Shown in pieces: positions 9,225-42,502 of a stretch of DNA of 45,756 nucleotides. The DNA lies in assembly GCA_003697365.1 (NCBI GenBank), contig RFGP01000191.1, positions 1-45,756 on the forward strand, read 5' to 3'. How positions within the stretch are numbered: the first letter of the stretch is position 1; every line of letters starts with the position of its first letter. Origin of the DNA: Chloroflexota bacterium (GTDB lineage: Bacteria; Chloroflexota; Anaerolineae; Aggregatilineales; J027). Under the pieces are notes generated by a model, which worked only from the letters and a program-made list of their open reading frames with translations, did no database searches and had not been told where the DNA came from. Made by a program: the position numbers and the translations under genes.

Positions 9225-11987
9225 ATGGCATCGCCCACTTGGCACACCCTAACAACTGATGAAGTGCTTCAACAACTACACACAGACGAGCGTCTTGGTC
9301 TCAATGAAGCAGAAATTGCAAAACGTCGAGAACAATATGGCTATAACGAACTTGAAGAGGCTCCACCGCGCACGTTTTGGCAAAGGTTACTCGATCAGTT
9401 TAATAATTTTGTGATTTATATTTTATTGTTTGCGGCAGCAATATCATTGGTAATAAGTATCTCAGAAGGCGAAGCACCTTATGAGTCCATCGCTATTCTA
9501 GCCATTGTTTTACTAAATACCATATTAGGGGTTGTGCAAGAAGGACGTGCGGAACAAGCACTGGCTGCACTTAAGAAACTTGCCTCTCCTGAAGCGCGTG
9601 TCCTTCGGAATGGACGCACTCTATCAATTCCATCTAGAGAGCTTGTTCCGGGTGACATTGTCTTATTAGAAGCGGGAGACAGTATCCCCGCAGATTTAAG
9701 GCTTGTCGAAGCGGTTAATTTGAGAATCGAGGAAGCCTCTCTTACAGGTGAGTCAGTTCCTGTTCATAAAGGCACCGAACCCACGCAAAATCCTGATGCC
9801 GTATTAGGTGATCGGCATAGTATCGCTTATATGGGGACGGTGGCAACTTATGGGCGAGGTAAGGGCGTTGTGATTGCCACAGGGATGAATACAGAGATTG
9901 GAAAAATAGCAGGACAACTTCAATCTACACCAGAAGAAGAAACGCCGCTGCAACGACAACTTAACAATCTTGGCCGCACATTAAGCATTGCTGCGTTGGC
10001 TATTTGTGGGCTTATTTTTGTCATCAGCGTTGTACAAGCCCTGAGCCATGATGAACCTGTTTTGAAGGCCGTTGAGGAAAGTTTCCTCATCGCAATCTCT
10101 TTAGCTATTGCAGCTGTTCCAGAAGGATTGCCAGCAGTTGTCACGATTAATCTCGCTTTAGGAATGCGAGAAATGATCAAAAGAAACGCTCTCATTCGAC
10201 GTTTGCCCGCAGTAGAAACACTAGGAAGCGCAGACGCAATATGTTCCGATAAAACTGGAACATTAACGCAAAATGAGATGACCGTAGTAAGACTTGTTAC
10301 CTTAACCGAACAATACGCAGTTAGTGGACAAGGCTATCAACCTGAAGGGACATTCTTTAAGGATAATAGCAATACACAGACAGAATTAAATGAAGATGCT
10401 AAGCGATTATTATTGGGCGGTTTGCTTGCCAATGATGCACGACTCGAAAAAGATGAACACGACGGCTATCGTATGATCGGCGATCCAACAGAAGGCGCAT
10501 TAGTTGTTGCTGCTGCTAAAGCTGGGCTGTGGCGCGAAGAAATTGAAAAGGTCTATCCACGCAAAGCCGAAGTTCCTTTCGATGCAGATCGCAAAAGAAT
10601 GAGCACAGTACACCCTTTTAATGAAAATGGAAAAAATGGTTACATAGCTTTTGTGAAGGGTGCACCAGACATATTGATCAATCTGTGTACTCATATTCGC
10701 GAAAATGGGCAAACCATCCCCATGACAGATGAGCACCGTCAAACCATGCTTCAATGTAATACGGCAATGGCAAATGAGGCTTTAAGGGTTTTAGCGGTCG
10801 CTGAAAGATATATGCCCTCCATCCCTAATGCTGTAGAAGCTAGTACTATTGAAGATGGGTTGGAGCTCGTCGGACTTATAGCAATGCGCGATCCAGCGCG
10901 TCCGGAAGTAAAAGCTGCTATTCAAAAAGCGCGCAATGCTGGCATTCGTACCGTTATGGTGACGGGAGATTACCCAGCGACAGCAAGGGCTATTGCTGAG
11001 GAAATTGGGTTATTACGTCCCAACGGCAGAGTCATTAGTGGTGCAGAATTGGAAAACATAAGCGACGATGAGTTAGACCAACTGCTTCCCACAACTGATG
11101 CTTTTGCCAGAGTTTCGCCTAACCACAAAGTTCGTATTGTAGATGCATTTCGTCGCGGTGATCATGTGGTCGCAATGACGGGAGATGGCGTGAATGATGC
11201 TCCAGCTCTAAAGCGTGCCAGCATCGGAATCGCAATGGGGATTACAGGCACAGATGTAAGCAAAGAAAGTGCTGACATGATTTTAACGGATGACAATTTC
11301 GCGAGTATTATCGCTGCTGTCGAACAAGGACGCATCATTTACGACAACATTCGTAAATTTGTATATTTCTTGCTCAGTTGCAATCTCGCAGAAATTGCCA
11401 CCATATTCACTGCCACGATCGTTGGTTGGGGGTCTCCGCTTACACCTATCCAACTTTTATGGTTAAATCTTGTTACAGATGGCGCACCAGCTTTAGCCTT
11501 AGGTGTGGAAAAAGGCGATCCAGACATTATGAATCGTCCACCACGTCGTCCGAATGAACCTATTATCAATCGTCCTATGCGTCTAGGAATGTTAATCCAA
11601 ACCATTGTGATGGCAGCAGTGACATTAATTGCTTTTTCAATAGGTCGAGAAAAGAGCTTCACACTAGGAAGCACTATGGCGTTTCTAACTTTATCTGGAG
11701 CGCAACTCATTCGCGCCTATAGCTCTCGTTCAGAATTATATTCTGTGTTTTCTTTAGGAGTTTTTAGCAATCGATATATGCAGTATGCTGTACTATCTTC
11801 AGGTATTGGCTTATTGCTGACGATATATGTTCCATTCTTTAACAACATCTTTGAAACAACACAACCAACGCTAAGCGAATGGGGAATTATTATCGTTTTG
11901 ATGTCAATACCAACGGTTATTGCCGAACTTTCAAAGCCATTTATACGCAAGATCGTTAATGTTCGCCCAATATCGCAACAAGGATAA
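9225..11987 (+). CDS. P2A-type calcium-transporting ATPase
   Basis: This 920-residue membrane pump couples ATP hydrolysis to Ca2+ export. Domains in order: N-terminal cation-ATPase domain with LGLNEAEIAKRREQYGYNEL, first membrane pair, actuator domain with the TGES loop (EEASLTGESVPV), helix M4 with AAVPEGLPAV, phosphorylation site CSDKTGTLTQNEM (Asp342), nucleotide domain with KGAPD, hinge MTGDGVNDAPALK, then M5-M10. Ca2+ ligand positions known from SERCA are retained: Glu in VPEGLP, Asn and Glu in LSCNLAEIA, and Asn, Thr and Asp in LNLVTDG. ATG 9225 is preceded by AGGA at 10 nt; the longer frame from TTG 9192 lacks a ribosome site. It is followed after 5 bp by a kinase gene, so they form an operon. 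A Mn2+ or Na+/K+ role is less likely given the conserved Ca2+ ligands. Confidence 0.93.
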   Translation: MASPTWHTLTTDEVLQQLHTDERLGLNEAEIAKRREQYGYNELEEAPPRTFWQRLLDQFNNFVIYILLFAAAISLVISISEGEAPYESIAILAIVLLNTILGVVQEGRAEQALAALKKLASPEARVLRNGRTLSIPSRELVPGDIVLLEAGDSIPADLRLVEAVNLRIEEASLTGESVPVHKGTEPTQNPDAVLGDRHSIAYMGTVATYGRGKGVVIATGMNTEIGKIAGQLQSTPEEETPLQRQLNNLGRTLSIAALAICGLIFVISVVQALSHDEPVLKAVEESFLIAISLAIAAVPEGLPAVVTINLALGMREMIKRNALIRRLPAVETLGSADAICSDKTGTLTQNEMTVVRLVTLTEQYAVSGQGYQPEGTFFKDNSNTQTELNEDAKRLLLGGLLANDARLEKDEHDGYRMIGDPTEGALVVAAAKAGLWREEIEKVYPRKAEVPFDADRKRMSTVHPFNENGKNGYIAFVKGAPDILINLCTHIRENGQTIPMTDEHRQTMLQCNTAMANEALRVLAVAERYMPSIPNAVEASTIEDGLELVGLIAMRDPARPEVKAAIQKARNAGIRTVMVTGDYPATARAIAEEIGLLRPNGRVISGAELENISDDELDQLLPTTDAFARVSPNHKVRIVDAFRRGDHVVAMTGDGVNDAPALKRASIGIAMGITGTDVSKESADMILTDDNFASIIAAVEQGRIIYDNIRKFVYFLLSCNLAEIATIFTATIVGWGSPLTPIQLLWLNLVTDGAPALALGVEKGDPDIMNRPPRRPNEPIINRPMRLGMLIQTIVMAAVTLIAFSIGREKSFTLGSTMAFLTLSGAQLIRAYSSRSELYSVFSLGVFSNRYMQYAVLSSGIGLLLTIYVPFFNNIFETTQPTLSEWGIIIVLMSIPTVIAELSKPFIRKIVNVRPISQQG

Positions 11988-11992
11988 AAAAC

Positions 11993-14900
11993 ATGGCCGA
12001 GATTAGCAACACGCTTGATGACATTATCATTGGGCAAAAGGTTAGCGGATGCCTCATTATCGAACGCATTGGCAAGGGGGGTATGGCTAGCGTTTATCGA
12101 GCAATTCGCGATGGTGATGAGTCGTCTGTAGCAATTAAAATCCTCACACAGCAAATCGCAGAGTCCGATAATGGTATTGCGCGCTTTCAAAGAGAGGCGC
12201 GCTTGATGCAAAGTTTACAGCATCCCCACATTTTACCTGTATATGAGTATGGAACACTCGGCAGCTTGATCTACCTCATCATGAAACTTGTAGAAGGTGG
12301 TTCCCTAGAAGCGCTGCTAAAGCAAGGTCGTTTATCCATTGATCTCACATTGAAAATGCTGGCAGAGATTACTTCGGCTCTTGATTATGCCCATGATCTC
12401 GGCGTAGTACATCGAGACTTAAAACCAGCAAATATCTTGCTAGATATAGATGGTACCACTTACTTAACTGATTTCGGCATTGCTAAATGGAAAGAAGAAA
12501 GCATCGGCTTAACATTAACAGGTATGGTTCTTGGAACGCCGGGCTATATGGCACCAGAACAATGGCGCACAGACCCCGTTGATCGTCGTACAGATGTGTA
12601 TGCACTCGGCGTAATGACTTTTAAAATGTTAACAGGGCGTTTGCCATTTAATGCAGAAACGCCCTTTAGCTTGATGTATAAGCACCTCGATGAACCGCCG
12701 CCATTAGCCACAGACATTGTTCCAGAGCTTGAGCCCAGTTTAGATTATGTGATTCAGCGCGCACTGCAAAAAGAGCCAGAATTCCGTTATCCAACAGCTG
12801 GAGATTTTTTCGCCGCGCTGCAAGATGCGCTTAGCGGAACGCTTGCGCAACCACTTTTAGACGTTCCTAATCCTGATGAAGCAACTGCGGTAATAGCAGA
12901 GGGTGTCGTGAATGTTTCGCATCAAACAATACAAACACAAGGGCAATACCCACTAGCAGTTGCTGTTGGCGCAAGAGCACTTATTAATCGGGGACGAGAG
13001 GCCCTGCGTGAGGCAAAAAACGACGAATTACGTCATGCCATAGCAGGTGCATTCATTACCTATGTGCAAAATTTGCAAGAACGCATCAAAGAATCCCCCA
13101 CACTTGTTGGCCCTTATAAAGCCCTAGAATCCTATGATATTTCGGATAATCGCCTATTCTTCGGTCGAGAAAAAGCAATTGATGAAATGCTAGCGCGTGC
13201 CCCATTTTCCAAATTCACAGTACTTCATGCTGAAAGCGGGGCCGGCAAAACCTCTTTGATCCGAGCGGGATTGATGCCACGTTTACTAGCAGGTGGGTTT
13301 TTACCGTTATACATTCCTGTTCGTATTAGCTCGCCGCACGAGGCGCTAAAAAGACTTTTGCTTCCCCCTGAATTTGATGCGAAGCAACTTCGTTTGCTAG
13401 ACGTGCTGCGCTTAGTCGCTGACATAGTTGGGCCAACCCGCGAAATTTTTATATTCTTTGATCAATTTGAGACATTTTTTACAGATGTGTTTACAGACCT
13501 AGAACGCCGTGAATTTATTCAAGAACTAGCGGCTTGTATTGATGATCCTTTGTTGCAAGTGCGTGTTACCTTAGCAATGCGTACAGAATATTTTGGATTA
13601 GTAGCGAACTTTCAACCGCATATCGCTCAGCCATTTGAGCGCGAGTACCTACTTAAGCGCCTAACTCGTGCTGAAGCTGAACGCGCGTTACTATTCCCTG
13701 CACAAGAGGAGGGTTACACCTACGAGAGCGATCTTGCCGAAAGAATTTTAGATGATTTGGCTGATGAAAACGGAGCTATAGCGCCTCCACAACTTCAACT
13801 AGTAGGGACAGCACTTGTTGAACAACTTCCTCCAAACGAAAAGTTTATAACTCTTAAAATTTATGAAGCTGCAGGCGGAGCAGAAGGAGTGCTTGGCAAT
13901 TATCTCAAGCGAATGCTCGAACGCCTTCCTAGCGATCAACGCGAAGTTGGCCGTGTGGTTATTGAGAATCTTGTCCGTGATGATAGCACACGCGCTGTTC
14001 GCACAGCTGACGAATTACGTGCAATCTTAGCAGCTCGAAATATTCCAACAAATAATTTAGAAAAAGTCTTGTTGATCTTACGCGAAGGACACTTACTACG
14101 TGTTCTTGACACTGAAAAAGGTCAAGCCTATGAGCTCGTGCATGATTATTTGGCGCAACAAATCCAAGTTGATCCAGAAACAGCTGCTTTGCGCGCTACT
14201 CAAGAACTCTTAGAACGACGGCTAAAAGATTATCAGCAAATTAAATCGCTACTAACTCCAGAAGAGTTAAATATTATTCGCACTCATCGCCAACGCCTAG
14301 CGATTAGTCCTATGGCACAAGAATTAATTACTATTAGCGAGCGCACACATCGCCGCCAACGCCGAAGAACTACCGCACTGATAGTAGGCACTATGGTTGG
14401 GTTAATTGGGGCACTTGCCATTGGGCTGGTGCTACTTATCCGTGAGAATGAAAATCAGCAACGCCAGCTTGAATTAGCAGCCGCTGCAGCTGCTGAGCGT
14501 GACGAAAAACTTATCCAAGAATCTGAACGTTTAGCAAACTTAGTGGAAGACTATATTGAAATTGATCCTATGGTGGCATTGAATCTAGCACTAGCCGCTG
14601 TTACACCACGAGATCGTCCTTATGTATCATCAGCAGAATTTGCGCTAAGTGTAGCAGTGCAGAATGTCAAAGAAGCGCTCTATCTAGAAGCAAACACAAA
14701 TACTATAGGCGCAATTTGGTCGCCCGATGAAACACAAATTTTATGGTGGAGTCGAGATGCTGTTACCCTTACTAATGCCAGCTCTGGAGAAACCATCGCT
14801 CAACTCACAACCGATCAAGCAGTTGTTTTGTCAGCAGCATTTGGAACAAGTGGGCGTGAAGTGTTATTAGGGGATGAACAAGGTCGCTTAGCTTTTTATA

Positions 14901-17002
14901 CTATTACAGACACTTTTGAACTTGAATGGGAACAGCCCAATGCGTATCAAGACCCAATTCGTGGTATGACATGGTTATCAGACCAAGAGCTTTTCTTAGT
15001 ATGGAGTGTTGAAACGCCCGGCTTCAATCGTGGCAGCACCGCACTTTGGGCACCTAATGGAGAGTTGTTTGCCAGCATCGAAGGAACTTACCCTCAACTT
15101 AGCCACAACAGAAACTTCATTGCTACACGTGATACAAGTCAACAAGTTCACTTATTGGATTTAAATGATAAAGAAAGCTATACCATCCAAACTGGAAATA
15201 ATACGCTTGATTTCGTTGGCTGGTCACATGGCGATCAATTCATTGTTACTTGGGGGCTCAATTCGCCTATACAGATTTGGGATGCTGAATCTAGAGAACT
15301 CCTCAATACGATTCAGACTGAGCAACCAATAACAGCTATACACTTATCTAGCACCGATCTTATTGCTGCTCTAACTGAACAGCAAATTTTCATCTGGGAA
15401 GCTGCGACAGGAGAACTTGTTCAAGTTTTACAGCCAAACGGCCCCAATCTTGAGAATCTCTTGTGGCATCCTGCGGGTATCCAACTTCTAGCCATAGGAC
15501 AACCAGAGTCGATAACGCTGTGGAATACTGCTGACTGGCAAAAAGTGGAGTTACCCGATCTCAGTACACAAGTCTTCGTGACAGATACATTTAATACAGC
15601 TTCATGGAGCCCGTCTGGGCAATATGTCACGATCACAATCGACACTTTAGACCCAGAACTTTCATCGGGCATTCTTATTTGGGACACAACTAACTCTGTA
15701 ATTGTAGATGTATTGCGCGGACATACCGAACGTATCATACAAACAACGTGGGATATGAACGAGCGCAGATTGTTAAGTGTAGGCGGACGAGATCAATCAG
15801 TACGACTATGGCGTGTTATAGAAGACCCATCTCGCACTCAATATGGTGAAATTGCACGATTTATCAGCGATGATAGTCGCGTTGTAACAGCTGTCTGGAA
15901 TCTTGATGAAACCCTTGTTGCCACTGGACATGACAACGGAGTAGTCCGTATATGGAATGTTACCAACGGGGAAATTTTACATACACTAGAAGGACACACA
16001 GCAGCAGTAGATGTCATCGAATGGTCTCCTAATGGAGCACAATTGCTCAGTGGCAGCGACGATGGACTAGCTATTATATGGGATGTTGCTAATGGCGAGA
16101 CGCTACAAATTCTGCCTCATCGCTATGATAATCAATTATGGAAAGTGTGGTCAGCAGATTGGCATCCAAATGGAAAACTTGTATTAACAACAAGTGATGA
16201 TGGGGCAATACGTGTGTGGGATACACAAACAGGCGAGGAGCTAAAATTCCTAGCAAATAGCTATCGACTTGCTGATGATAGTATACCCGGTACAGGAACA
16301 ACCTCTGCATTTTGGAGTGATGATGGCACCAAAATTTTAGCCTCTAGTGACGATGGGGCGGTACAAGTATGGGATGTTGAATCAGAAACCGTTGAACTCT
16401 CGCTTTTCACTGATCTTCTCATAGCCTTTGGCGCAAAATGGAATAGTGATGAATCACAAATCCTTGTATGGGGAGCAGGATTATTTGATCTGGCTTTTGC
16501 GGGGGTTTATGATGCCAATAGTGGTGATCTACTTTTTGATCTTGTTGGGCATGAAGATTGGATTATCAGTGCTGATTGGAATCCCGATGAATCACGTATT
16601 TTGACAAGTGGGCGTGATACCACCATTCGTGTATGGGATGCAAAAACCGGTGAGCCGATTTACCAGATCACAGCGCATCGGGATTCTGTGCCTGAGGTAT
16701 TATGGAGCCCTGATGGACTAAGATTCCTTAGTCGTAGTGTTGATGGAACAGTGCGCGTGTGGGAAGCAAACGATGGAGTGGAATTATACCGTGTGGTTTT
16801 AGGGAGTTCAGCACGTCCTACTGATATACAGTGGAGCCAAGCCAGTAACCGCATCCTTGTAGGAGTTTCAGAAGATAAGCAAACGGGTACTGCGCGCATT
16901 ATCAATACACAAAACGATCTTGATGCACTTATTGACTATGCAGAGTCGCTAATCACACGTGCACTGACCCCTGAACAACGTCGTCAATTTTTAGGACAAT
17001 AA
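11993..17002 (+). CDS. Ser/Thr protein kinase - STAND ATPase - TM - WD40 signalling protein
   Basis: The 1669-residue protein has four parts. Residues 15-280 are an active-looking Hanks-type kinase: glycine loop IGKGGMASVYRA, VAIKIL lysine near 46, HRDLKPANILLD near 141, DFGIAK near 160 and GTPGYMAPEQW near 181. Residues 385-760 are an nSTAND NTPase: FFGREKAIDEML, Walker A HAESGAGKTSLIRAG near 412, Walker B IFIFFDQFE near 485. A membrane helix follows at about 793-815, with RRQRRR just before it. Residues about 880-1640 are WD40 repeats with many WSPDG/WNPDES and RVWD units, about a dozen or more blades. The basic flank places the kinase inside and the propeller outside the cell membrane. It starts 5 bp after the Ca2+-ATPase gene with AAGGAT upstream, so co-expression is expected and the pump may be a substrate; that last point is speculation. 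It converges on the cyclase gene with an 8-bp gap. Confidence 0.93.
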   Translation: MAEISNTLDDIIIGQKVSGCLIIERIGKGGMASVYRAIRDGDESSVAIKILTQQIAESDNGIARFQREARLMQSLQHPHILPVYEYGTLGSLIYLIMKLVEGGSLEALLKQGRLSIDLTLKMLAEITSALDYAHDLGVVHRDLKPANILLDIDGTTYLTDFGIAKWKEESIGLTLTGMVLGTPGYMAPEQWRTDPVDRRTDVYALGVMTFKMLTGRLPFNAETPFSLMYKHLDEPPPLATDIVPELEPSLDYVIQRALQKEPEFRYPTAGDFFAALQDALSGTLAQPLLDVPNPDEATAVIAEGVVNVSHQTIQTQGQYPLAVAVGARALINRGREALREAKNDELRHAIAGAFITYVQNLQERIKESPTLVGPYKALESYDISDNRLFFGREKAIDEMLARAPFSKFTVLHAESGAGKTSLIRAGLMPRLLAGGFLPLYIPVRISSPHEALKRLLLPPEFDAKQLRLLDVLRLVADIVGPTREIFIFFDQFETFFTDVFTDLERREFIQELAACIDDPLLQVRVTLAMRTEYFGLVANFQPHIAQPFEREYLLKRLTRAEAERALLFPAQEEGYTYESDLAERILDDLADENGAIAPPQLQLVGTALVEQLPPNEKFITLKIYEAAGGAEGVLGNYLKRMLERLPSDQREVGRVVIENLVRDDSTRAVRTADELRAILAARNIPTNNLEKVLLILREGHLLRVLDTEKGQAYELVHDYLAQQIQVDPETAALRATQELLERRLKDYQQIKSLLTPEELNIIRTHRQRLAISPMAQELITISERTHRRQRRRTTALIVGTMVGLIGALAIGLVLLIRENENQQRQLELAAAAAAERDEKLIQESERLANLVEDYIEIDPMVALNLALAAVTPRDRPYVSSAEFALSVAVQNVKEALYLEANTNTIGAIWSPDETQILWWSRDAVTLTNASSGETIAQLTTDQAVVLSAAFGTSGREVLLGDEQGRLAFYTITDTFELEWEQPNAYQDPIRGMTWLSDQELFLVWSVETPGFNRGSTALWAPNGELFASIEGTYPQLSHNRNFIATRDTSQQVHLLDLNDKESYTIQTGNNTLDFVGWSHGDQFIVTWGLNSPIQIWDAESRELLNTIQTEQPITAIHLSSTDLIAALTEQQIFIWEAATGELVQVLQPNGPNLENLLWHPAGIQLLAIGQPESITLWNTADWQKVELPDLSTQVFVTDTFNTASWSPSGQYVTITIDTLDPELSSGILIWDTTNSVIVDVLRGHTERIIQTTWDMNERRLLSVGGRDQSVRLWRVIEDPSRTQYGEIARFISDDSRVVTAVWNLDETLVATGHDNGVVRIWNVTNGEILHTLEGHTAAVDVIEWSPNGAQLLSGSDDGLAIIWDVANGETLQILPHRYDNQLWKVWSADWHPNGKLVLTTSDDGAIRVWDTQTGEELKFLANSYRLADDSIPGTGTTSAFWSDDGTKILASSDDGAVQVWDVESETVELSLFTDLLIAFGAKWNSDESQILVWGAGLFDLAFAGVYDANSGDLLFDLVGHEDWIISADWNPDESRILTSGRDTTIRVWDAKTGEPIYQITAHRDSVPEVLWSPDGLRFLSRSVDGTVRVWEANDGVELYRVVLGSSARPTDIQWSQASNRILVGVSEDKQTGTARIINTQNDLDALIDYAESLITRALTPEQRRQFLGQ

Positions 17003-31746: not shown

Positions 31747-32433
31747 ATGTCCCGCAAAATGAAAATCCTTCTGGTTGAAGACGATAAAACACTCCGCAAA
31801 ACGCTTGCCTTTAACCTTGAAAAAGAGGGGTATGAAATCCTCGAAACAGGTGAAGGTGCCGAAGCACTCACCATAGCACGAGAACATAATCCTGACCTCA
31901 TCGTACTTGATATTATGTTACCTACGCTCGACGGGTTGTCCGTTTGTCGTGTGTTACGGAATGAATCAAATGTTCCCATAGTAATGCTCACAGCGCGTGA
32001 CGGTGAAGTTGATAGAATCATCGGCTTAGAAAACGGCGCTGATGACTATATCGTGAAGCCTTTCAATCTTGGTGAATTTCTTGCAAGAGTACGCGCTGTA
32101 CTCCGCCGAACAGGTGATCCAAACCGACAACCTGATAAGCTCCAATCAGGCGATCTTGTATTGGATCTAATCGCACGCAAAGCTACTTTTCGCGGAGAAG
32201 AATTGCGCTTAACACACAAAGAATTTGACTTAATGGCTGCGCTTATGCGTAATAGAGGTGCAGTGCTCTCACGCGATCTATTATTGGAGCGTGTTTGGGG
32301 ATATGAGTATAGCGGTCAAAGCAAAACAGTAGATGTACATATTCGTTGGTTGCGCGAAAAAATCGAGGAAGACCCTTCAAATCCTAAACGAATTGTTACA
32401 GTTCGTGGTGTGGGTTATCGATTTGAGGAATAA
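31747..32433 (+). CDS. phoB: PhoB-type response regulator (OmpR family)
   Basis: The 228-residue protein has a receiver domain ([13 protein letters not shown] acidic pair, phospho-acceptor Asp55 in [12 protein letters not shown], Thr in VMLTARD, Lys in DYIVKPF) and a C-terminal winged helix with [25 protein letters not shown] and RTVDVHI-like wording ([15 protein letters not shown]). It overlaps the sensor kinase gene by one base (TAATG) and stands directly ahead of the pst genes. This supports PhoB, the activator of phosphate-starvation genes, over other OmpR-type regulators. AAAGGAT precedes the ATG. The symbol is based on context plus family. Confidence 0.9.
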
Positions 32434-33623
32434 TGGGGATGCAAATTTTATTGTTTCTAAGCATCATCATAACCATTGGGCTAGGAATTCTCTATCTTCA
32501 AGCCTTGCGTCAAGCACGTTCGTTAAAAACTCAAATCGAAGCATATTCCGCTGCTCAAAAAGAACTGCTATCACGAGTAGAGTTTAGCGAATTATTGGAC
32601 AGCGTTTTGCGAGAGGTTATCGACGACGGCATCGTTGTATTAGATGCAAATCAGCGCGTTTTATTTGCGAACAACAAGGCACGGGAGCTCGCCGATCATG
32701 AAATGGTTGGCGAGAGCTTGATCGCGTCCCTGAGGCATCGCGGTATTGATGAGCTGCTCCTAGAAGTCATAGAACACGATGAGCAAAGTTATGTTCAACA
32801 GTTACTCAATTTTAATAACAACATCAAACTAGATGTACAAATTCATCGTTTACAAAAAAGTAAACGCGAGACGTTTTATGTTTTACTGCTACGTGATGTC
32901 ACTGCCCTAAAGCGTGCAGAAGTGGCAAGACGAGAGATGGTAGACAACATTACTCACGAACTTAATACGCCTATCACAACAATGAATTTAGTTGTTGAAA
33001 CCTTAGACGATGATGACATCTTACGTTCTAAAAAAGGTCACAAGATTCTAAAAGAAAAGATTAGCGATTTAAGACGTTCACTGGGTGTTGTAACTCAGCT
33101 TATCGAAGAAATGAAGATTCTGTCAGAGATTCAATCAGGCGTGTTACCAATCCTACTTCAACCAACACCTTTATTGCCAATGATTGAATCAGCTATTGCT
33201 CCTCTGCATCCGTTAGCTGCTGATCATCAGCAACAAATTCAAGTCGAAATTCCAGATGATATTATTGTTTATGCTCATGCGTATTATTTGGAGCGCGTCG
33301 TCAAAAACATCACACATAATGCGATTAAATTTTCCCCTGAAAACGGCATAATTTGCATTACAGCCACCCAAGATGAACAAATGGTCACCGTTGCCATTAA
33401 AGATAACGGAATTGGCATCCCCGCAGATCAATTGCCGCGTATTTTTGAGCGTTTCTATCAAGTAGATCGCTCTCGCGATCGTGCACGGAAGAACGGCACT
33501 GGTCTAGGGTTAGCAATAGCTAAACATATTGTGCAAAAGCATGGCGGCGAGATTTGGGTAGAAAGCGAAGAAGGAAAAGGTACTACTTTTTTCTTTTCAC
33601 TTTACAAAGATACATCTTCATAA
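32433..33623 (+). CDS. phoR: PhoR-type sensor histidine kinase
   Basis: The 396-residue kinase has one N-terminal membrane helix (LLFLSIIITIGLGILYLQAL, about residues 5-24), a short coiled segment, a PAS domain (DGIVVLDANQRVLFANNKA, about 65-150), a dimerisation domain with phospho-accepting His175 in DNITHELNTP, and an ATPase domain with NITHNAIKFSPENG (N box), IKDNGIGIP (G1), FERFYQVDRSRD and GTGLGLAIAK (G2). There is virtually no extracytoplasmic part, so it cannot bind ligand outside and presumably reads the Pst transporter and PhoU inside, as known for PhoR. It is coupled to phoB and followed by pstS after 148 bp. Confidence 0.9.
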   Translation: MGMQILLFLSIIITIGLGILYLQALRQARSLKTQIEAYSAAQKELLSRVEFSELLDSVLREVIDDGIVVLDANQRVLFANNKARELADHEMVGESLIASLRHRGIDELLLEVIEHDEQSYVQQLLNFNNNIKLDVQIHRLQKSKRETFYVLLLRDVTALKRAEVARREMVDNITHELNTPITTMNLVVETLDDDDILRSKKGHKILKEKISDLRRSLGVVTQLIEEMKILSEIQSGVLPILLQPTPLLPMIESAIAPLHPLAADHQQQIQVEIPDDIIVYAHAYYLERVVKNITHNAIKFSPENGIICITATQDEQMVTVAIKDNGIGIPADQLPRIFERFYQVDRSRDRARKNGTGLGLAIAKHIVQKHGGEIWVESEEGKGTTFFFSLYKDTSS

Positions 33624-33688: not shown

Positions 33689-33771
33689 ACCGCTCTTTAT
33701 TTTTTGCCGCTAATATCATCCCCATCTCGTTAAATCTCTGTATATTTCCTTTAGGAGGAAAACAAAGAGTT

Positions 33772-35145
33772 ATGCGTAAATCAATTTTTGCCAAAGTATT
33801 TTCTTTGGTGCTGGCAATCGCCATCGTTGTTCCCGCTTTTGGTGGAGTGGCTGCTCAAGATGCCCCTGCCACAGTTGTTGACATCGTCGTTAACAGTGAA
33901 GATCACAACACGCTTGAAACAGCCGTTGTTGCCGCTGGTCTCGTTGAAGCTCTCAGCAATCCTGATGCAGAGTTCACCGTTTTCGCTCCAGTGGATGCTG
34001 CATTTGCCGATCTTCCTTCAATAGTAGTCGAAGCTGCTCTCGCCAACACCGATTTACTTACAAGTTTGTTAACCTATCATGTTGTTGAAGGGCGCATACT
34101 TTCAGGCGATATAGCTGAAGGCTGCACAGATGTTGAAACTCTCAACGGCGCTACTATCACCGTATGCAATGACATGGGCAATGTCACCGTAAATAGCGCC
34201 ACTGTAACCGCCGCTGATCTCGAAGCGGGTAATGGCGTTGTACACGTCATTGATCGTGTCATCATTCCTCCTGTGGAATTACCAGCTGTTGACCCCTCAA
34301 CTATCAGTGGCCCAATTATTACTGCGGGTAGCTCAACCGTTGCCCCACTGACCACAGCCGTCGCCCAACGTTGGCAAGATGCAGGCGGTGTTGATGTTCC
34401 TACTGTTGATAGTATCGGTACAGGTGCAGGCTTTGAGCGTTTTTGTGAAGCACTTGAAAGCGACATTTCTAACGCTTCACGTCCTATTCGAGACAGTGAA
34501 ATTGAAACTTGTGTTGCTAATGGGCGTGTACCTCTTGAAATTCGCGTTGGTACAGATGCATTGGCAGTTACTGTCAGTGCCGAAAATGATTTCGTCGACA
34601 ATTTAACTCTTGAGCAATTAGCAGCTATCTTCAGCGGACAAGTTGAAACATGGGCAGATGTAAACCCAGACTGGCCCGACGAGGAAATTCTCCTCTATAG
34701 TCCCGGTACTGACAGCGGTACATTCGACTATTTCGTTGAAGCAGTTCTCGATGAGAACGCTGATGCGCTGCTCAATGCTAACCCTGAACTTAGCGAAAAT
34801 GATGATGTGTTGGTAGAAGGTGTTTCTGGTAGCCCATTTGCAATTGGCTACTTTGGTTATGCTTACTATATCGAAAATACTGACATTCTACATATCGTTG
34901 ATATTGAAGGCGTAACGCCAAGTGCAGCAAATGTCGATAACGGTTCCTACCCATTGGCTCGCCCGTTGTTTATTTACACAACAGCTGAGATCATGGCTGA
35001 AAAGCCACAAGTTGCAGCTTTTGTTGCCTTCTATCTCAATAACCTTGATGAAGCACTCGCAGAAGTAGGATATTTCCCTGCGAATGCCGATGATGAAAAT
35101 GTCGCCAAGCTATCATGGCTCATTGCCACAGGTAACATTGGTTAG
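33772..35145 (+). CDS. pstS: FAS1 (fasciclin) - PstS fusion, phosphate-binding protein
   Basis: The 457-residue exported protein begins with a signal peptide (MRKSIFAKVFSLVLAIAIVV to GVAAQDA, cleavage near residue 29). Residues about 34-168 are a FAS1 domain: TVVDIVVNSEDHNTLETAV, FTVFAPVDAAFADLP (the H1 motif), LLTYHVVEGRI (YHV box) and GVVHVIDRVIIPP (H2). Residues 178-457 are a PstS-type periplasmic binding domain: GPIITAGSSTVAPLT, the GTGAGFERFCEA and SNASRPIRDSE phosphate-contact loops, GTDALAVTV, IFSGQVETWADVNP and SPGTDSGTFDYFVE. The binding half is complete, so it should deliver phosphate to PstCA. FAS1 usually mediates adhesion or protein contact, and its fusion to PstS is unusual. ATG 33772 follows AGGAGG; the open frame extends upstream without a signal peptide. 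Confidence 0.92.
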   Translation: MRKSIFAKVFSLVLAIAIVVPAFGGVAAQDAPATVVDIVVNSEDHNTLETAVVAAGLVEALSNPDAEFTVFAPVDAAFADLPSIVVEAALANTDLLTSLLTYHVVEGRILSGDIAEGCTDVETLNGATITVCNDMGNVTVNSATVTAADLEAGNGVVHVIDRVIIPPVELPAVDPSTISGPIITAGSSTVAPLTTAVAQRWQDAGGVDVPTVDSIGTGAGFERFCEALESDISNASRPIRDSEIETCVANGRVPLEIRVGTDALAVTVSAENDFVDNLTLEQLAAIFSGQVETWADVNPDWPDEEILLYSPGTDSGTFDYFVEAVLDENADALLNANPELSENDDVLVEGVSGSPFAIGYFGYAYYIENTDILHIVDIEGVTPSAANVDNGSYPLARPLFIYTTAEIMAEKPQVAAFVAFYLNNLDEALAEVGYFPANADDENVAKLSWLIATGNIG

Positions 35146-35251: not shown

Positions 35252-36244
35252 ATGGCATCGACCAGTATGCATCCCAAAGACGGCAGCCATATTGCCGAAA
35301 AAATGCGCAGACATCTGCGCCCCAGCGAATCAATCATTGGCAGCATTCTTTTCTTTTGTGCAATTGTCTCTATCTTCACAACAATAGGTATTGTCATCAC
35401 TTTAGGAGCTGAATCTTTTCGACTCTTCTCAAAAGAACAGTGCGTTGAAGTTACGTATCTTAGTACTGGGAAACGTTGTGAAGAGGTAACACTCAATGAA
35501 TTTCTTACCACGACAGAATGGGTTCCTCAAAGCCTTAAATTCGGAGCACTACCGCTCATTGCATCAACGCTCACCACTTCTTTTATTGCAATGACCATTG
35601 CAATTCCATTGGGCATTGGCGCAGCTATTTATCTTAGCGAATATGCTTCACCCCGCACACGTCGCGTATTGAAACCTATTCTGGAAGTCCTTGCTGGTAT
35701 TCCGACTGTTGTCTATGGCTTTTTCGCGCTTACATTTGTAACTCCTGTTTTGCGTGATGTATTTACTGTCACAGCTATGCCGACCCTTTTCAACATGCTT
35801 TCAGCTGGGTTAGTTATGGGGATTATGATTTTACCGCTTATGGCTTCAATGAGTGAAGATGCGCTTAATGCCGTTCCAAGAAGCCTACGAGAAGGCTCTT
35901 TTGGGTTAGGGGCAAATAAGTTAGAAACAACAGTCTCTGTTGTTCTGCCGGCTGCTCTATCAGGCGTTATTGCAGCGATGATTATTTCTGTATCACGTGC
36001 TGTTGGCGAAACCATGATCGTAGCTATTGCTGCTGGCGCAGGACCACGTTATACCATCGTACCTTTTGATGCTGCCGAAACCATTACTGGACATATCGCA
36101 CGTATTAGCAGCGGAGACATATCCTTCAATTCAGTCGACTATAACAGCGTATTCGCGTTGGGGTTAATGCTCTTTATTGTAACCCTATTCTTAAACATTA
36201 TTGGTCGGCAGCTAGCAACGATTTTTAGAGAAGAATACGACTAA
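35252..36244 (+). CDS. pstC: Phosphate ABC transporter permease PstC
   Basis: The 330-residue protein is the PstC permease, with a basic cytoplasmic start (KMRRHLRP), first helix IIGSILFFCAIVSIFTTIGI, and about five further helices from residue 105. It carries the PstC/PstA loop [33 protein letters not shown], and the EAA-like ATPase contact SFGLGANKLETTVSVVLPAA near 213-232, followed by SRAVGETMIVAIAAG. The extracytoplasmic loop after helix 1 is somewhat extended and contains Cys64 and Cys76, which could form a disulfide. AGGAT precedes the ATG. It pairs with the giant PstA encoded 20 bp downstream. Confidence 0.94.
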   Translation: MASTSMHPKDGSHIAEKMRRHLRPSESIIGSILFFCAIVSIFTTIGIVITLGAESFRLFSKEQCVEVTYLSTGKRCEEVTLNEFLTTTEWVPQSLKFGALPLIASTLTTSFIAMTIAIPLGIGAAIYLSEYASPRTRRVLKPILEVLAGIPTVVYGFFALTFVTPVLRDVFTVTAMPTLFNMLSAGLVMGIMILPLMASMSEDALNAVPRSLREGSFGLGANKLETTVSVVLPAALSGVIAAMIISVSRAVGETMIVAIAAGAGPRYTIVPFDAAETITGHIARISSGDISFNSVDYNSVFALGLMLFIVTLFLNIIGRQLATIFREEYD

Positions 36245-36264: not shown

Positions 36265-39200
36265 ATGGATAGAGCAGCTTTCATCTTCTGGGTTCTCGCT
36301 ACTATAGCACTTATTGATGTTGCAATTATCAACCTGCCATTGATTTTAGCGCGTAAAGGACACAAACCACGATTAGGATTGTTTGCTGGGCCATTGCTTG
36401 GGCTTATAGCCGCTTTTTTCGCTATTTTTGCCCTAAAACCTATCTTTTTTCTTGTACTTGATGGTGCACAAGCAGCGCTAGGCGTAGCCTTAAATGAAGA
36501 GCGAGAAATCATCGATGTCAATTGGGACGCTAGCGGCACACGACTTATTGCTTGGACAGAAAACGACACAGTAAGTTTGTATTCTCTTTCGCAAATCAGC
36601 TCACCCTCTAAATTTGAACACCAAGAAGGTGAACTGGAACATAGTGCATGGGGCCCAGATCAAGAACATCTTCTAACATGGGGGTCAGGAGATACTATTG
36701 AGTTATGGACAACGACAGACACCAACTCGCCAAAATACTTAATGCGGCATGATGCCCCCGTAGCGAATGCTATCTGGAACACAGATCGTGATGCTCCTAA
36801 AGTGTTATCTTGGTCAGAAAATGGTACTGTTTACATTTGGAATCCTAACGAAGACCTTGATCTTCCACTTATATTGCGTACTGTTGATGATAATGCCCAA
36901 CTGAACCAAGCCTCATGGAATGAAGATGAAACCAAAGTGCTTTTGTGGTACACCGATGGTACAGTCCGCATTTGGGACATCGAAGATATTGCAGCTGGTG
37001 CGCGGCTCTCAACAACAGAAAGCATCATTGAGCGCAGTCCATTTTTAGCCTTGCGTGTCCCTAAGCGTACAATCGCCCATCAAGGCGGCTTACGCAACGG
37101 TGATTTGTTGTTGCGTCTGGGCGAACAAACTTTTAATTTAGATGAAATTCTTCTAGAAAACGAACTTGATCCTTCAGAAGACCCTGCAACGATTGCTTCA
37201 ACGATTCGCAACAGTCTCAATAATCGAATTAATGCGGCATTTTCTGCGGCAATAGCAGACGGGTTTATATCAGTAGAGGTATATCGTCAGGGAGAAACTC
37301 GTACTGTTATTTTAGAAATACCGCCCATATCTGACACAAATGCTACTCAAGAGTTTAGCGATCTAGGTTTCACAGTTAACTATGTTGGACAAAACCCAAC
37401 AGTTGTTAATATCGGAGAAACTTCAGCGAACACCCTACCATGGAGCCCTAACCGTGATCGTATATTATCGTGGTCGATTGATAACGTAATTCGAGTATTT
37501 GATGTTGATAATCCTCAAGAATTTATAGCCTTACCCTATCAGCAAGAAGTACAAGGCGCACAATGGAGTGATAATAACGAGGAAATCATCTTCTGGACAG
37601 ATACAGAAGTGTTTGCTTGGAACTTGGACGATGATTATGCCGCTACTCGCTCTGCTGATCTTGATGCTATTGAGCGCCAACAGGGCTTCATTCTGAGTGG
37701 AAGCATACTAGAAAATATTGGCATTGAAAGCGCTCGCCTCATTAAAGTTGGTGACCGTGAGATTAATGTTGCCACTTTGATCACTGAATATGCGATAGAT
37801 GCCAGCACCACACGCCAAATCAATCGAGCACTGTCTCCCATTGTTGAAGAAATCATCGCACAAGAAGCAATACAGGCGGCTTTCAACAACCAATCACTTC
37901 CACTTGAACTGTACTATAATGGCGAGTTCACAACATTTGAGGTTAGTGTTAACCTTGATGATCCGACAATAAACCCTCCGCTCTTTCCCTCGCTGCGCCT
38001 ACCATTTCTAACCTCAGAATCGTTGGGCCTTTCAGTTGAATTTATTAGCGAAAATCCAAAGAGTGTTCCTCTAAATAGTGCTGTTATCGATGTTGTGGCG
38101 AGTACCGATGAAGCTGTAGCTGTTATCTTATTTGAGGATCATTCAGCTTTAATTTGGAACCTTGACCGTCAAGATGCACCCATTACTCTAGAAAATACAG
38201 CTCATGCTGTTTGGAGTAACGAGGGTAACCATCTGGTCACATGGTCTGATCAAAGCCAATTCATCAACATTCGCACCTTAGACGATCTAAATAGCCCAAT
38301 TCGCATTGAGATTAACAACGAAATCAGTAATGTAGTATGGTCTCTCAATGATGAATTCTTTGCAGTAATTGCTGGCAAAGAAAAGGTCTTAATATTCCAA
38401 GTAGAAGACCTTAACACTCCACTTTACACATTTGAACATGACGGCAACATATTAGGTGTAGAGTGGTCACCTAATGAACAACGACAAGCATTGCTAGTTT
38501 ATTTGGACAACGGTCTTATTGATGCTTGGTCTCTTGCTGATGGCTCCAAGCGTGAGATTAATTTGAATAGCGAAGTGGCATTTTCTGACAATCTAAATTT
38601 CGGAGTTTCATTTGACAATATTATTCCCCAATTTAACGTGTCAGATGCTCGTACAAGAAGCCTTGCATTTATTCAAGCATTAATGGCAGGGCTCTTAACA
38701 TTTTTTGGGGGATACCTTACATTAAAATTGATATATCGACTCATCCCCTCTGTTAATGAAGAAGCGATCTCAATGCAAGTTAGCACGCTAGCGCGCCAAC
38801 TGCGCGGACGAGTTTTGCAGATTCATTATTTTATTGCCATTGTTATTGGTATGCTTGCTCTATCTGCTCTTCTTTGGAATATCACCAAAGAAATATTCAC
38901 CATTGTAGCTGTGAGCGAAACCGTTGATCCCACAACGTTAACTGGTGGAAGAGAACTTTCTGAGCTTGACAAAGATGAAATCGCGCTGTTGATTGTAGAA
39001 AATGCTAACGCACAATTTGTGCGTACTGCAATTCGAGATTATGTATGGGGCGTTGACGAGAGAGTAGCTTCCGCAAATGGCGAGGGGTTAAAACCTATCT
39101 ACGAGTCATCACTAAGGGATAAATTGCCTGAAGGTATTCGTATCCCTGAAAATATAAGTTATGCTGATCTCTTAGAGCCTGAAAACACAGATGCCATTGT

Positions 39201-40857
39201 TGAACTCATGGCATATAACACTGACAAAGCAGTTTTAGATCGTCTAGCTATCATAACAGGATTAAGTCACGAAAACCTTGTCAAAGAGCTGCTTGAAGAA
39301 CTTGGCACTGAAGGTGTAATTGACTTAATCATTCAACAAAATATCTGGCCAGAGATCAACACCAACCAGCAAACACCCTATGATCCCACGTTGCTACAAA
39401 CAACATTTAATCTCTCAGAGTTGCCTCCCGATAACATTACATTTGAAACATTGCCAGAGCATCCAGAGATTTTGCGCGAAATTTTAATGGCATCCGCTCC
39501 CAATGGATTTACACGCGGTCAGCTTGAAGATGCGTTGTATGCTTCAAATGCTGAGTTTAACACCAGCCAATTACCCACCATTAATCAGTTTGGTGTTGAT
39601 AAAGCACCGCCCCAAAGCATTCTCAATCGTTTGGTAGCACAAGTTATTGTTGACAACACGCTGAAAAATAGCTCTATCGAACGATTACGCGAGATTTTCC
39701 GCATCTATACTTGGGGTATTGATGAAGAGACCGCACGAAATCTGGCCGAGCAACCAATTCTAGAAGTTTCAGAGCTAAAAGGTACCCCTTACATTCCCGC
39801 TGATCTCGATTTTGTTTTCTTGCAATATGATTCAGATGCAATGAGATATTTGTTGCGAGAAAACCTGAATAAAGTAGACCTTGAAGCCCTTGCCATTGAT
39901 CTTGTCGCACAACCCTTTATTGTTCGGACATGGACGCTTGATGTTCTCATTCAGCGTGAGCTTTTTGGCAGTGATGAAGTTGATGAGCAACTTCAAGCAT
40001 TAAATGCAGCACGTGCTGAAGAAGCCGCGCAAAATAACACAACATGGAACGATGCTGAGCTGGAATATCGTTCTTGGATTAATTTTAACTTTGTGCGCCG
40101 CACACTCAACGCTGATGCCGAACTCACCGGAATGCGTAACGCTATCTTAGGTACACTATGGGTAATTGCCGTCACCATTATTTTTGCTTTCCCAGTTGGT
40201 ATTGGCGCTGCTATTTATCTTGAAGAATACGCCGGTAACAATCCGATCAAACGCCTCATTCAGACCAATATTGACAATCTAGCAGGAGTACCATCAATTA
40301 TTTACGGGTTGTTAGGTGTTGCCTTGTTTGTAAGAGCACTTGAGCCTATTACAAGCGGAACAGCATTAGGGTTGAGCAATCCTATCACCGCAAACGGACG
40401 AACAGTCCTATCCGCAGGCTTGACAATGGGACTATTGATCTTGCCTATTATCATTATTAACGCCCAAGAGGCAATTCGTGCAGTACAACCCTCAATACGC
40501 CAAGCGAGCTATGGCTTAGGTGCAACAAAATGGCAAACGATTTGGAATCATGTTCTGCCATATGCAATGCCGGGTATCCTCACAGGGACAATTTTGGCAA
40601 CATCGCGCGCAATTGGTGAAACTGCGCCCTTACTTGTTGTTGGTGGTATCACATTTATCACTACTGATCCCACAGGGCCGTTCTCCAAGTTTACTGCACT
40701 TCCATTACAAATCTATTTTTGGACTTCACAACCACGAGATGCTGACAAAGCGGTGGCTGCGGCAACTATCGTTATTTTGTTAGCCATCCTCATTTCACTC
40801 AATTCATTTGCCATCATTCTTCGTAATCGCTTTGAAAAACAAGTAAGAGGTAGATAA
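36265..40857 (+). CDS. pstA: Giant PstA: WD40/PDZ-like sensor region fused to phosphate permease
   Basis: The 1530-residue protein is over five times the usual PstA length. Residues 1-65 hold two helices separated by the basic loop ARKGHKPR. Residues about 75-790 contain some ten WD40-type units (for example [40 protein letters not shown]) interrupted by two related PDZ-like segments (about 270-375 and 470-610). A helix at about 796-816, a basic linker (RQLRGR) and a helix at about 853-873 follow. About 400 mostly helical residues come next, and then the PstA core, residues about 1288-1525: [58 protein letters not shown] and [15 protein letters not shown]. The helix at 853 corresponds to PstA helix 1. 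The basic loops put the WD40 region and the insertion outside the cytoplasm. One uninterrupted frame joins all parts, and pstB follows after 5 bp. Confidence 0.93.
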
Positions 40858-40862
40858 TCATC

Positions 40863-41681
40863 ATGACTGATGCACAATTGATCGCTATACCAAACGCCCA
40901 ACAAGTTCGCCAAGAATATGCACTAGAAGCACACAATTTGAGCATCTTCTATGGTAATTTTCGTGCCGTAGATAGTGTATCAATGAAGATTCAATACAAT
41001 AAAATTACAGCCCTAATTGGCCCATCTGGATGTGGTAAAAGTACACTTTTACGTTCATTTAATCGAATGAACGACCTTGTACCGGGAGCGCGTATTGAAG
41101 GAGAACTCTTGTTTCAAGGGCAAAATCTTTACGATCCATTTGTCGATCCTGTAGAGGTACGTCGTCGCATCGGTATGGTTTTTCAGAAGCCAAACCCATT
41201 TCCAAAATCAATTTATGACAACGTCGCCTATGGCCCTAGAATACAAGGCATTCGCAAAAAATCACAACTTGATGATATTGTTGAGCGTAGCTTGCGACAA
41301 GCAGCATTGTGGGATGAAGTAAAAGATAAGCTACGACAATCGGGCTTGTCATTGTCTGGTGGTCAACAACAACGGCTATGTATTGCTCGTGCTATTGCTG
41401 TTGAACCAGAAATTTTATTGATGGATGAGCCTTGTTCCGCACTTGACCCCATCGCGACACTTCGCATAGAGGAACTTATGCGAGAATTGCAAGAAAACTA
41501 TACGATTGTCATCGTTACACACAATATGCAACAAGCCGCACGTGTATCAGACTACACTGCCTTCATGATGATTAACGAAAACCGTTCTGGTGGACTCGTT
41601 GAATTCGATCTCACTGAAAAGATTTTCACAAATCCATCAGATTCACGTACAGAAGATTATGTCACTGGACGCTTTGGTTAA
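40863..41681 (+). CDS. pstB: Phosphate ABC transporter ATPase PstB
   Basis: The 272-residue ATPase energises phosphate import. It has [16 protein letters not shown], Walker [20 protein letters not shown] near residue 53, Q-loop [19 protein letters not shown], signature [14 protein letters not shown] near 163, Walker [15 protein letters not shown] near 183 and the switch His in [13 protein letters not shown]. The FNRMNDL and [12 protein letters not shown] wording is specific to PstB. The length is normal (slightly extended N-terminus), so only the permease and binding protein are enlarged. It starts 5 bp after pstA with GAGG upstream. Confidence 0.97.
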
Positions 41682-41740: not shown

Positions 41741-41806
41741 AACTTCTATGATAAAACGTTAAATAAACTTAGCGGGTTCTGATAAATGTATAACTTGGAA
41801 ACCATA

Positions 41807-42502
41807 ATGTCTACTACACCTCCACGCTCAAGAAGCCAACTAGATCGGGAACTAATGCTCCTTCGGGATAATGTGCTACGGTTATCGACGATGGTAGATG
41901 CAGCGCTTCAGCAACTTCAACAAATCAATCGACAGTTAGACGTTGCACAAGCCCGACAGATCATTGCTGATGATACAAAAATAAATCGGTTGCGTTATAA
42001 GATCGAAGAGGATGCATATAAACTCATTGCACGCCATCAGCCTACTGCGCGCGATCTACGAGGCATTATCACATCTATTCATATCGCAGTAGAGCTAGAA
42101 CGCATTGGTGATTATGCAGCCGGAAATTCGCGCTTGCTATTAGAAATGGTCGATGAAGCTCTATTGATTTCCACTTTTAGTAATATCACACGAATGCTCG
42201 ACCTATCCCGACAGATGATGCGCAATGCAATGAATGCCTATGTTCATTGGGATGAAGAACAAGCCCGAAGAGTTATCCAACGTGACAACGACATTGACGC
42301 TATTGACAAACAAGTGTATCAAGAACTCATCGACCTCATGACTAAGCAAAGTCACACCATTAGCCATGCTACTTATATGCTTTGGATTTCCCATAATTGC
42401 GAGCGCATTGGTGATCGTATCACCAATATTTGCGAACGGATCATTTATATGGTTAGTGGTGAAATGTATTATGGTATTCGCCAAAAAGGCGAAGAGCTAT
42501 AA
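41807..42502 (+). CDS. phoU: Phosphate signalling protein PhoU
   Basis: The 231-residue protein is all-helical with two PhoU three-helix repeats, each with the metal-binding pattern: HIAVELERIGDYAAGNSR in the first half and LWISHNCERIGDRITNICE in the second. PhoU links Pst transport activity to PhoR and prevents toxic phosphate uptake. ATG 41807 is favoured by GGAAA 5-9 nt upstream; an in-frame ATG at 41786 would add seven residues. The gene ends convergently with the next one, overlapping by 6 bp. Confidence 0.94.
   Translation: MSTTPPRSRSQLDRELMLLRDNVLRLSTMVDAALQQLQQINRQLDVAQARQIIADDTKINRLRYKIEEDAYKLIARHQPTARDLRGIITSIHIAVELERIGDYAAGNSRLLLEMVDEALLISTFSNITRMLDLSRQMMRNAMNAYVHWDEEQARRVIQRDNDIDAIDKQVYQELIDLMTKQSHTISHATYMLWISHNCERIGDRITNICERIIYMVSGEMYYGIRQKGEEL

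Follow-up and report, generated by a model that had tools for sequence, protein, structure and literature searches.

The window, the whole 45,756-nucleotide stretch of DNA analysed here, encodes a protein in which a FAS1 (fasciclin) domain is fused to the N-terminal side of a phosphate-binding PstS domain. We propose that FAS1 serves as a surface-retention module for an unlipidated phosphate receptor, and give this reading a probability of about 0.5; both the retention and the binding partner of FAS1 are read from domain architecture and genomic context. The receptor itself would be the PstS of a conventional Pst importer serving a monoderm cell, and the same figure covers this explanation as a whole. 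The 457-aa product is encoded by the plus-strand ORF 33772-35145, which starts with an ATG at 33772 and lies in a standard phosphate cluster with the gene order phoB-phoR-pstSCAB-phoU. The features of the cluster are as follows.

31747..32433, plus strand: PhoB-type response regulator (ORF and profile)
32433..33623, plus strand: PhoR-type PAS histidine kinase (ORF and profile)
33752..33771, plus strand: ribosome-binding region of the AGGAGG type (TAGGAGGAAAACAAAGAGTT), 5′ of the ATG (sequence)
33772..33861, plus strand: Sec signal peptide, type I-like (MRKSIFAKVFSLVLAIAIVVPAFGGVAAQD..), without a lipobox cysteine (motif inspection, not SignalP)
33865..34272, plus strand: FAS1 domain, aa 32-167, with the Pfam match at aa 44-166 (profile, phmmer, AlphaFold2 model, structural match)
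34273..34299, plus strand: short ordered linker between FAS1 and PstS, aa 168-176 (pLDDT above 90 throughout)
34300..35142, plus strand: PstS domain, predicted to bind phosphate, aa 177-457, with AGSST, GTGAGF, NASRP and DSGTFD motifs (profile, structure, motifs)
35252..36244, plus strand: PstC permease of ordinary size, 330 aa (TIGR02138 above cut-off)
36265..40857, plus strand: PstA permease, 1530 aa, with WD40-like propeller regions followed by the permease core at aa 1272-1524 (profiles)
40863..41681, plus strand: PstB ATPase (TIGR00972 above cut-off)
41786..42502, plus strand: PhoU-like regulator (sequence reading, no profile)

The first-pass annotation had described a signal peptide without a lipobox followed by complete FAS1 and PstS domains, and had named a lack of profile support for FAS1 at residues 34-168 as the result that would overturn this description. 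The profile searches strongly supported FAS1. The Pfam Fasciclin family (PF02469) matched aa 44-166 over profile positions 2-123 of 123 (E 1.6e-33; 116 bits against a gathering cut-off of 22), PBP_like_2 (PF12849) matched aa 176-422 (E 3.1e-36), and the NCBIfam PstS model TIGR02136 matched aa 179-436 with 241.3 bits against a curated cut-off of 206.6. When phmmer was run against solved structures, aa 34-172 matched TGFBIp and aa 173-435 matched the phosphate-binding protein 4jwo. The ligand-loop motifs AGSST, GTGAGF, ASR and DSGTFD were present in the window PstS and in most of its relatives. An AlphaFold2 model built from a 24-sequence alignment reached a mean pLDDT of 91.4 and a pTM of 0.85. 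Aligned with VIA-align, aa 32-167 of this model matched TGFBIp FAS1-4 (5nv6) with a Z score of 23.3 over 134 aa at 0.9 Å, and aa 177-454 matched PstS 4jwo with a Z score of 34.2 over 274 aa at 2.4 Å. The full-profile Pfam match and the TGFBIp fold match show that the FAS1 domain is complete, and the above-cut-off TIGR02136 score and the 4jwo fold match show the same for PstS. The pLDDT stayed above 90 around aa 161-180, where the linker lies, so the model predicts a defined placement of FAS1 relative to PstS and not a flexible connection. A motif search of the N-terminus found no lipobox cysteine, and inspection of sequence and motifs likewise placed a signal peptide without a lipobox ahead of FAS1. 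The fusion is not an assembly chimera, because it recurs in independent genomes.

ABC-importer receptors of monoderm bacteria are normally lipoproteins. It had been suggested at first pass that the organism may lack a classic periplasm or a lipidated PstS. Omp85 was found in 0 of 21 genomes of the lineage, while 7 diderm control genomes were positive, so the cells are very probably bounded by a single membrane, which supports the lack of a classic periplasm. The lack of a lipidated PstS in the lineage was also confirmed. Missing lipidation machinery was ruled out as its cause, since lgt was present in 61 of 61 genomes and lspA in 59 of 61.

Signal peptides and lipoboxes were assigned from motifs and visual inspection, and the counts rest on profile hits; the automatic lipobox flags of L058, L100, L103, L118, L287 and L289 were caused by ORFs extended upstream and were discarded as false on inspection. 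No FAS1-PstS protein of the order carries a lipobox. About 20 other PstS proteins of the order, bare or tandem, are unlipidated too, one of which (L100) has an ambiguous Cys motif within its hydrophobic core. Nearly all sampled PstS proteins of other orders have a lipobox and a low-complexity linker. In the genome of the window, all 18 SBP_bac_1/SBP_bac_5 proteins that were read lack a lipobox (two of them resemble Tat-type proteins, and in L138 the first helix may stay on). Across the order, no lipobox is present in 25 of 27 readable SBP_bac_5 proteins, the exceptions being L304 and L306, both of family f3; this count leaves out the unreadable L279, L288 and L307 and takes the flags of L287 and L289 as false. 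Outside the order, a lipobox was present in 27 of 28 readable SBP_bac_5 proteins, three of them read by eye. Because nearly all receptors are unlipidated but lgt and lspA are kept, the lineage gave up receptor lipidation, not lipidation as such. A PstS-like protein of the same genome (L066) keeps an LAGC lipobox. Among the solute-binding proteins of this genome and of the order (e.g. L136-L155 and L278-L307), nearly all are without a lipobox. A 732-aa ORF of this genome with two PBP_like_2 stretches (L067, G000:C199) is distantly related to PstS and has no lipobox. The halves of several tandem PstS-PstS proteins are nearly identical (L027/L093, L029/L095, L051 and L119).

A parallel was found in family f23, which lies elsewhere in the class. 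Its three sampled PstS proteins (L127, L255 and L256) carry a LysM-type segment between their non-lipidated signal peptide and PstS, so that LysM occupies the position of FAS1 relative to PstS. LysM was recognized by Pfam in L127, and the same segment was read by eye in the other two. L161, the one readable SBP_bac_5 protein of the outside sample that is unlipidated, also belongs to f23, and another SBP_bac_5 of this family (L257) lacks a lipobox as well. In known cases LysM binds peptidoglycan. The retention model would lead one to expect an unlipidated receptor of this kind, with a putative wall-type domain where FAS1 sits in the window protein.

FAS1 is not confined to PstS. The genome of the window holds eight FAS1 domains in six proteins, three of which are receptors: FAS1-PstS itself, a protein with FAS1 followed by a phosphonate-binding domain (Phosphonate-bd; L003, G000:C97), and a Peripla_BP_2 protein with a C-terminal FAS1 (L002, G000:C205). 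A sample of FAS1 proteins was scanned more widely. Within the order, FAS1 was joined to Peripla_BP_6 (profile-scanned in L193; L194, L196, L198 and L201 have FAS1 at the same position and a similar length), to SBP_bac_8 (L199) and to SBP_bac_3 (L223, L225). Altogether, FAS1 stands at the N- or C-terminus of receptors from no fewer than five binding-protein families of the order besides PstS. In the FAS1 tree, the Peripla_BP_6 and SBP_bac_8 fusions of family f1 group together (support 99) and the other receptor FAS1 domains lie apart, indicating that several separate acquisitions are likely. The sole FAS1-receptor case seen outside the order in this sample (L265) combines FAS1 with SBP_bac_8 and is lipidated. 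In other families, lipoproteins are common among the free-standing FAS1 proteins. Class-wide, FAS1 partners also include LysM, SH3_3, Ig-like, protease and pullulanase-type domains. FAS1 is often accompanied by DUF4397 in the order (L186, L192, L197, L202, L204, L206, L207, L212, L213, L218 and L219).

The distribution of the fusion was followed in 60 relatives and in a 396-genome class sample. FAS1-PstS was found in at least 25 genomes, all of the window's order: 9 of 10 genomes of family f1 (one truncated), 8 of 11 of f8, and part of f2 (8 genomes). Outside the order there was none among the matches listed for the class sample; six partly extended matches (L272-L277) proved on reading to be PstS lipoproteins that carry low-complexity linkers and no FAS1. 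Between close pairs, dN/dS was 0.05-0.16 for FAS1 and 0.06-0.16 for PstS, indicating that FAS1 is kept by purifying selection as PstS is. The fusions were somewhat scattered in both the PstS-domain tree and the FAS1-domain tree, and in the free FAS1 tree the FAS1 of the window's genus lay near Saprospiraceae FAS1 domains. A single origin followed by losses was not rejected by AU tests in either tree (p 0.66 and 0.235), and we claim neither a single origin nor several independent ones.

The retention model would work as follows. FAS1-PstS would be exported by Sec and cleaved by signal peptidase I, as its signal peptide suggests, so that no lipid would hold the receptor; with only one membrane, the cell could lose a receptor that it secretes freely. 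FAS1 may bind material of the cell wall, S-layer or matrix, or else other FAS1 proteins, and would hold the phosphate-binding domain close to PstC/PstA, which PstS would load with phosphate as usual. The monoderm setting, the lineage-wide loss of lipoboxes from solute-binding proteins, the presence of FAS1 on other receptors, the LysM-PstS of f23, the further domains paired with FAS1 across the class and the purifying selection on FAS1 suggest such a role. A cell-surface tether, as envisaged in the first-pass annotation, is plausible and is strengthened by FAS1 on other binding proteins and by the f23 proteins. FAS1 proteins are known to mediate contacts between the cell surface and the exterior (PMC6032426), and loss of the FAS1 protein Fdp lowered the adherence of Rhodobacter sphaeroides about 100-fold (PMC7561615). 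The former review also cautions that, where cells have a wall, speaking of 'adhesion' may be misleading, which counts against retention. Moreover, many unlipidated solute-binding proteins of the same genome have no FAS1; together with the roughly 20 bare or tandem PstS proteins, this indicates that not all such receptors need it. The lipidated L265 and the free-standing FAS1 lipoproteins indicate that FAS1 is not simply a lipid substitute. Both these numerous untagged receptors and L265 weaken the retention view.

The main rival holds that FAS1 is a docking or assembly module within the transporter, touching the outer loops of PstC/PstA or another FAS1 and thereby positioning PstS on the permease. 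We regard this as unlikely, although several observations are in line with it. The AlphaFold model predicts with confidence an apparently fixed two-domain arrangement, and related operons place extra domains in Pst subunits, with PstS-like regions in PstC (L093, L097, L098) or PstA (L052), as well as an enlarged PstA. Many interaction surfaces are ascribed to FAS1 in a review (PMC6032426). However, FAS1 occurs on unrelated binding proteins and at either end of them, which argues against a Pst-specific contact. In addition, its presence does not track the size of either permease: no association of FAS1 with PstA or PstC enlargement was seen among about 40 relatives whose operons were compared, the partners of FAS1-PstS ranging from 330 to about 500 aa for PstC and from about 467 to 1530 aa for PstA.

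Some features of these permeases were recorded in their own right. PstA size varies widely from relative to relative. A PstS-like insert precedes the permease core of PstC at L093:3902-6100, L097:3710-5896 and L098:12507-14615; these operons also hold a separate PstS, and the matched insert in PstC has no AGSST loop. At L052:3413-5662, a PstS-like region lies 5′ of the permease core of PstA. In the window, an open frame of 1680 aa at positions 11960-16999 (plus strand) shows weak BLAST similarity to PstA-derived queries, probably to their propeller part.

A role of FAS1 as a second domain that binds or scavenges a ligand (for example organic or polymeric phosphate, glycans or lipids) and would feed or sense for PstS seems to us more doubtful still. 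Carotenoid binding by the FAS1 protein AstaP (PMC10147662) offers a precedent, and the FAS1 partners in this genome include both a phosphate and a phosphonate receptor. Against it, no substrate theme unites the Peripla_BP_6, SBP_bac_3, SBP_bac_8, Peripla_BP_2, pullulanase-type and protease partners, and according to that paper no common small ligand is reported for FAS1.

The earlier proposal that PstS is tethered to the enlarged PstA was not supported by the operon comparison. FAS1-PstS and a WD40-bearing PstA share the window operon, but eight operons (L077, L081, L084, L085, L087-L090) combine FAS1-PstS with PstA ORFs of only 467-530 aa, a 1430-aa PstA ORF (L107) stands beside a bare PstS without FAS1, and the PstA extension varies even inside the window's own genus (1042 aa in L074 vs 1530 aa). 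With no association between FAS1 and PstA size, a specific tie of PstS to this PstA is very improbable. Equally improbable is a functionless FAS1 tolerated as a passenger in PstS: many otherwise similar PstS proteins of the order do without FAS1, but FAS1 is under purifying selection equal to that on PstS, and three families have kept the fusion.

A lineage without receptor lipidation must hold or replace its receptors by other means. On a broader scale, we tentatively suggest that ABC receptors of a whole monoderm Chloroflexota order switched from lipid anchoring to retention by protein domains, although we would bet against this wider version rather than for it. Lipoboxes would have been dropped from nearly all solute-binding proteins with lgt and lspA kept, FAS1 would have been recruited several times, for phosphate, phosphonate and other receptors, and LysM would play the same part in an independent family. 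If FAS1 is indeed the holder, a concrete and testable job could be assigned to bacterial FAS1 domains, about whose role little is known, and the anchor of a nutrient receptor would be swappable for a protein module; the LysM-PstS of the unrelated family f23 offers the natural comparison. Both domains are well known, and their combination was not found described in the literature searched. In the part covered, at the level of titles and abstracts, there was no description of this architecture in work on fasciclin with PstS, on fasciclin in Chloroflexi or on LysM with PstS, and the terms substrate-binding and periplasmic do not occur in the FAS1 review (PMC6032426).

Compared with known systems, the window protein resembles PstS of the TIGR02136 subfamily, the nearest solved structure being 4jwo from Planctomyces limnophilus, in its whole-domain match, fold, ligand-loop motifs and operon, but it adds an N-terminal FAS1 and has no lipobox. 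It shares a complete FAS1, with a fold nearly identical to TGFBIp FAS1-4, with FAS1 proteins such as TGFBIp and periostin and the bacterial MPB70 and Fdp; unlike in these, its FAS1 is joined to an ABC-transporter receptor. The lipoprotein PstS of other Anaerolineae (e.g. Caldilineaceae, L040-L055) has a PstS domain about 60-67% identical to that of the window, but is anchored through a lipobox cysteine plus a low-complexity linker and has no FAS1. Fusion of a receptor to its own permease, as in GlnPQ and OpuA, is another lipid-free way to stay near the transporter, whereas the window receptor is a separate polypeptide with a surface-type domain. The LysM-PstS of f23 likewise has a non-lipidated signal peptide, a small extra domain and PstS in a pst operon; its extra domain is LysM, and that of the window protein is FAS1.
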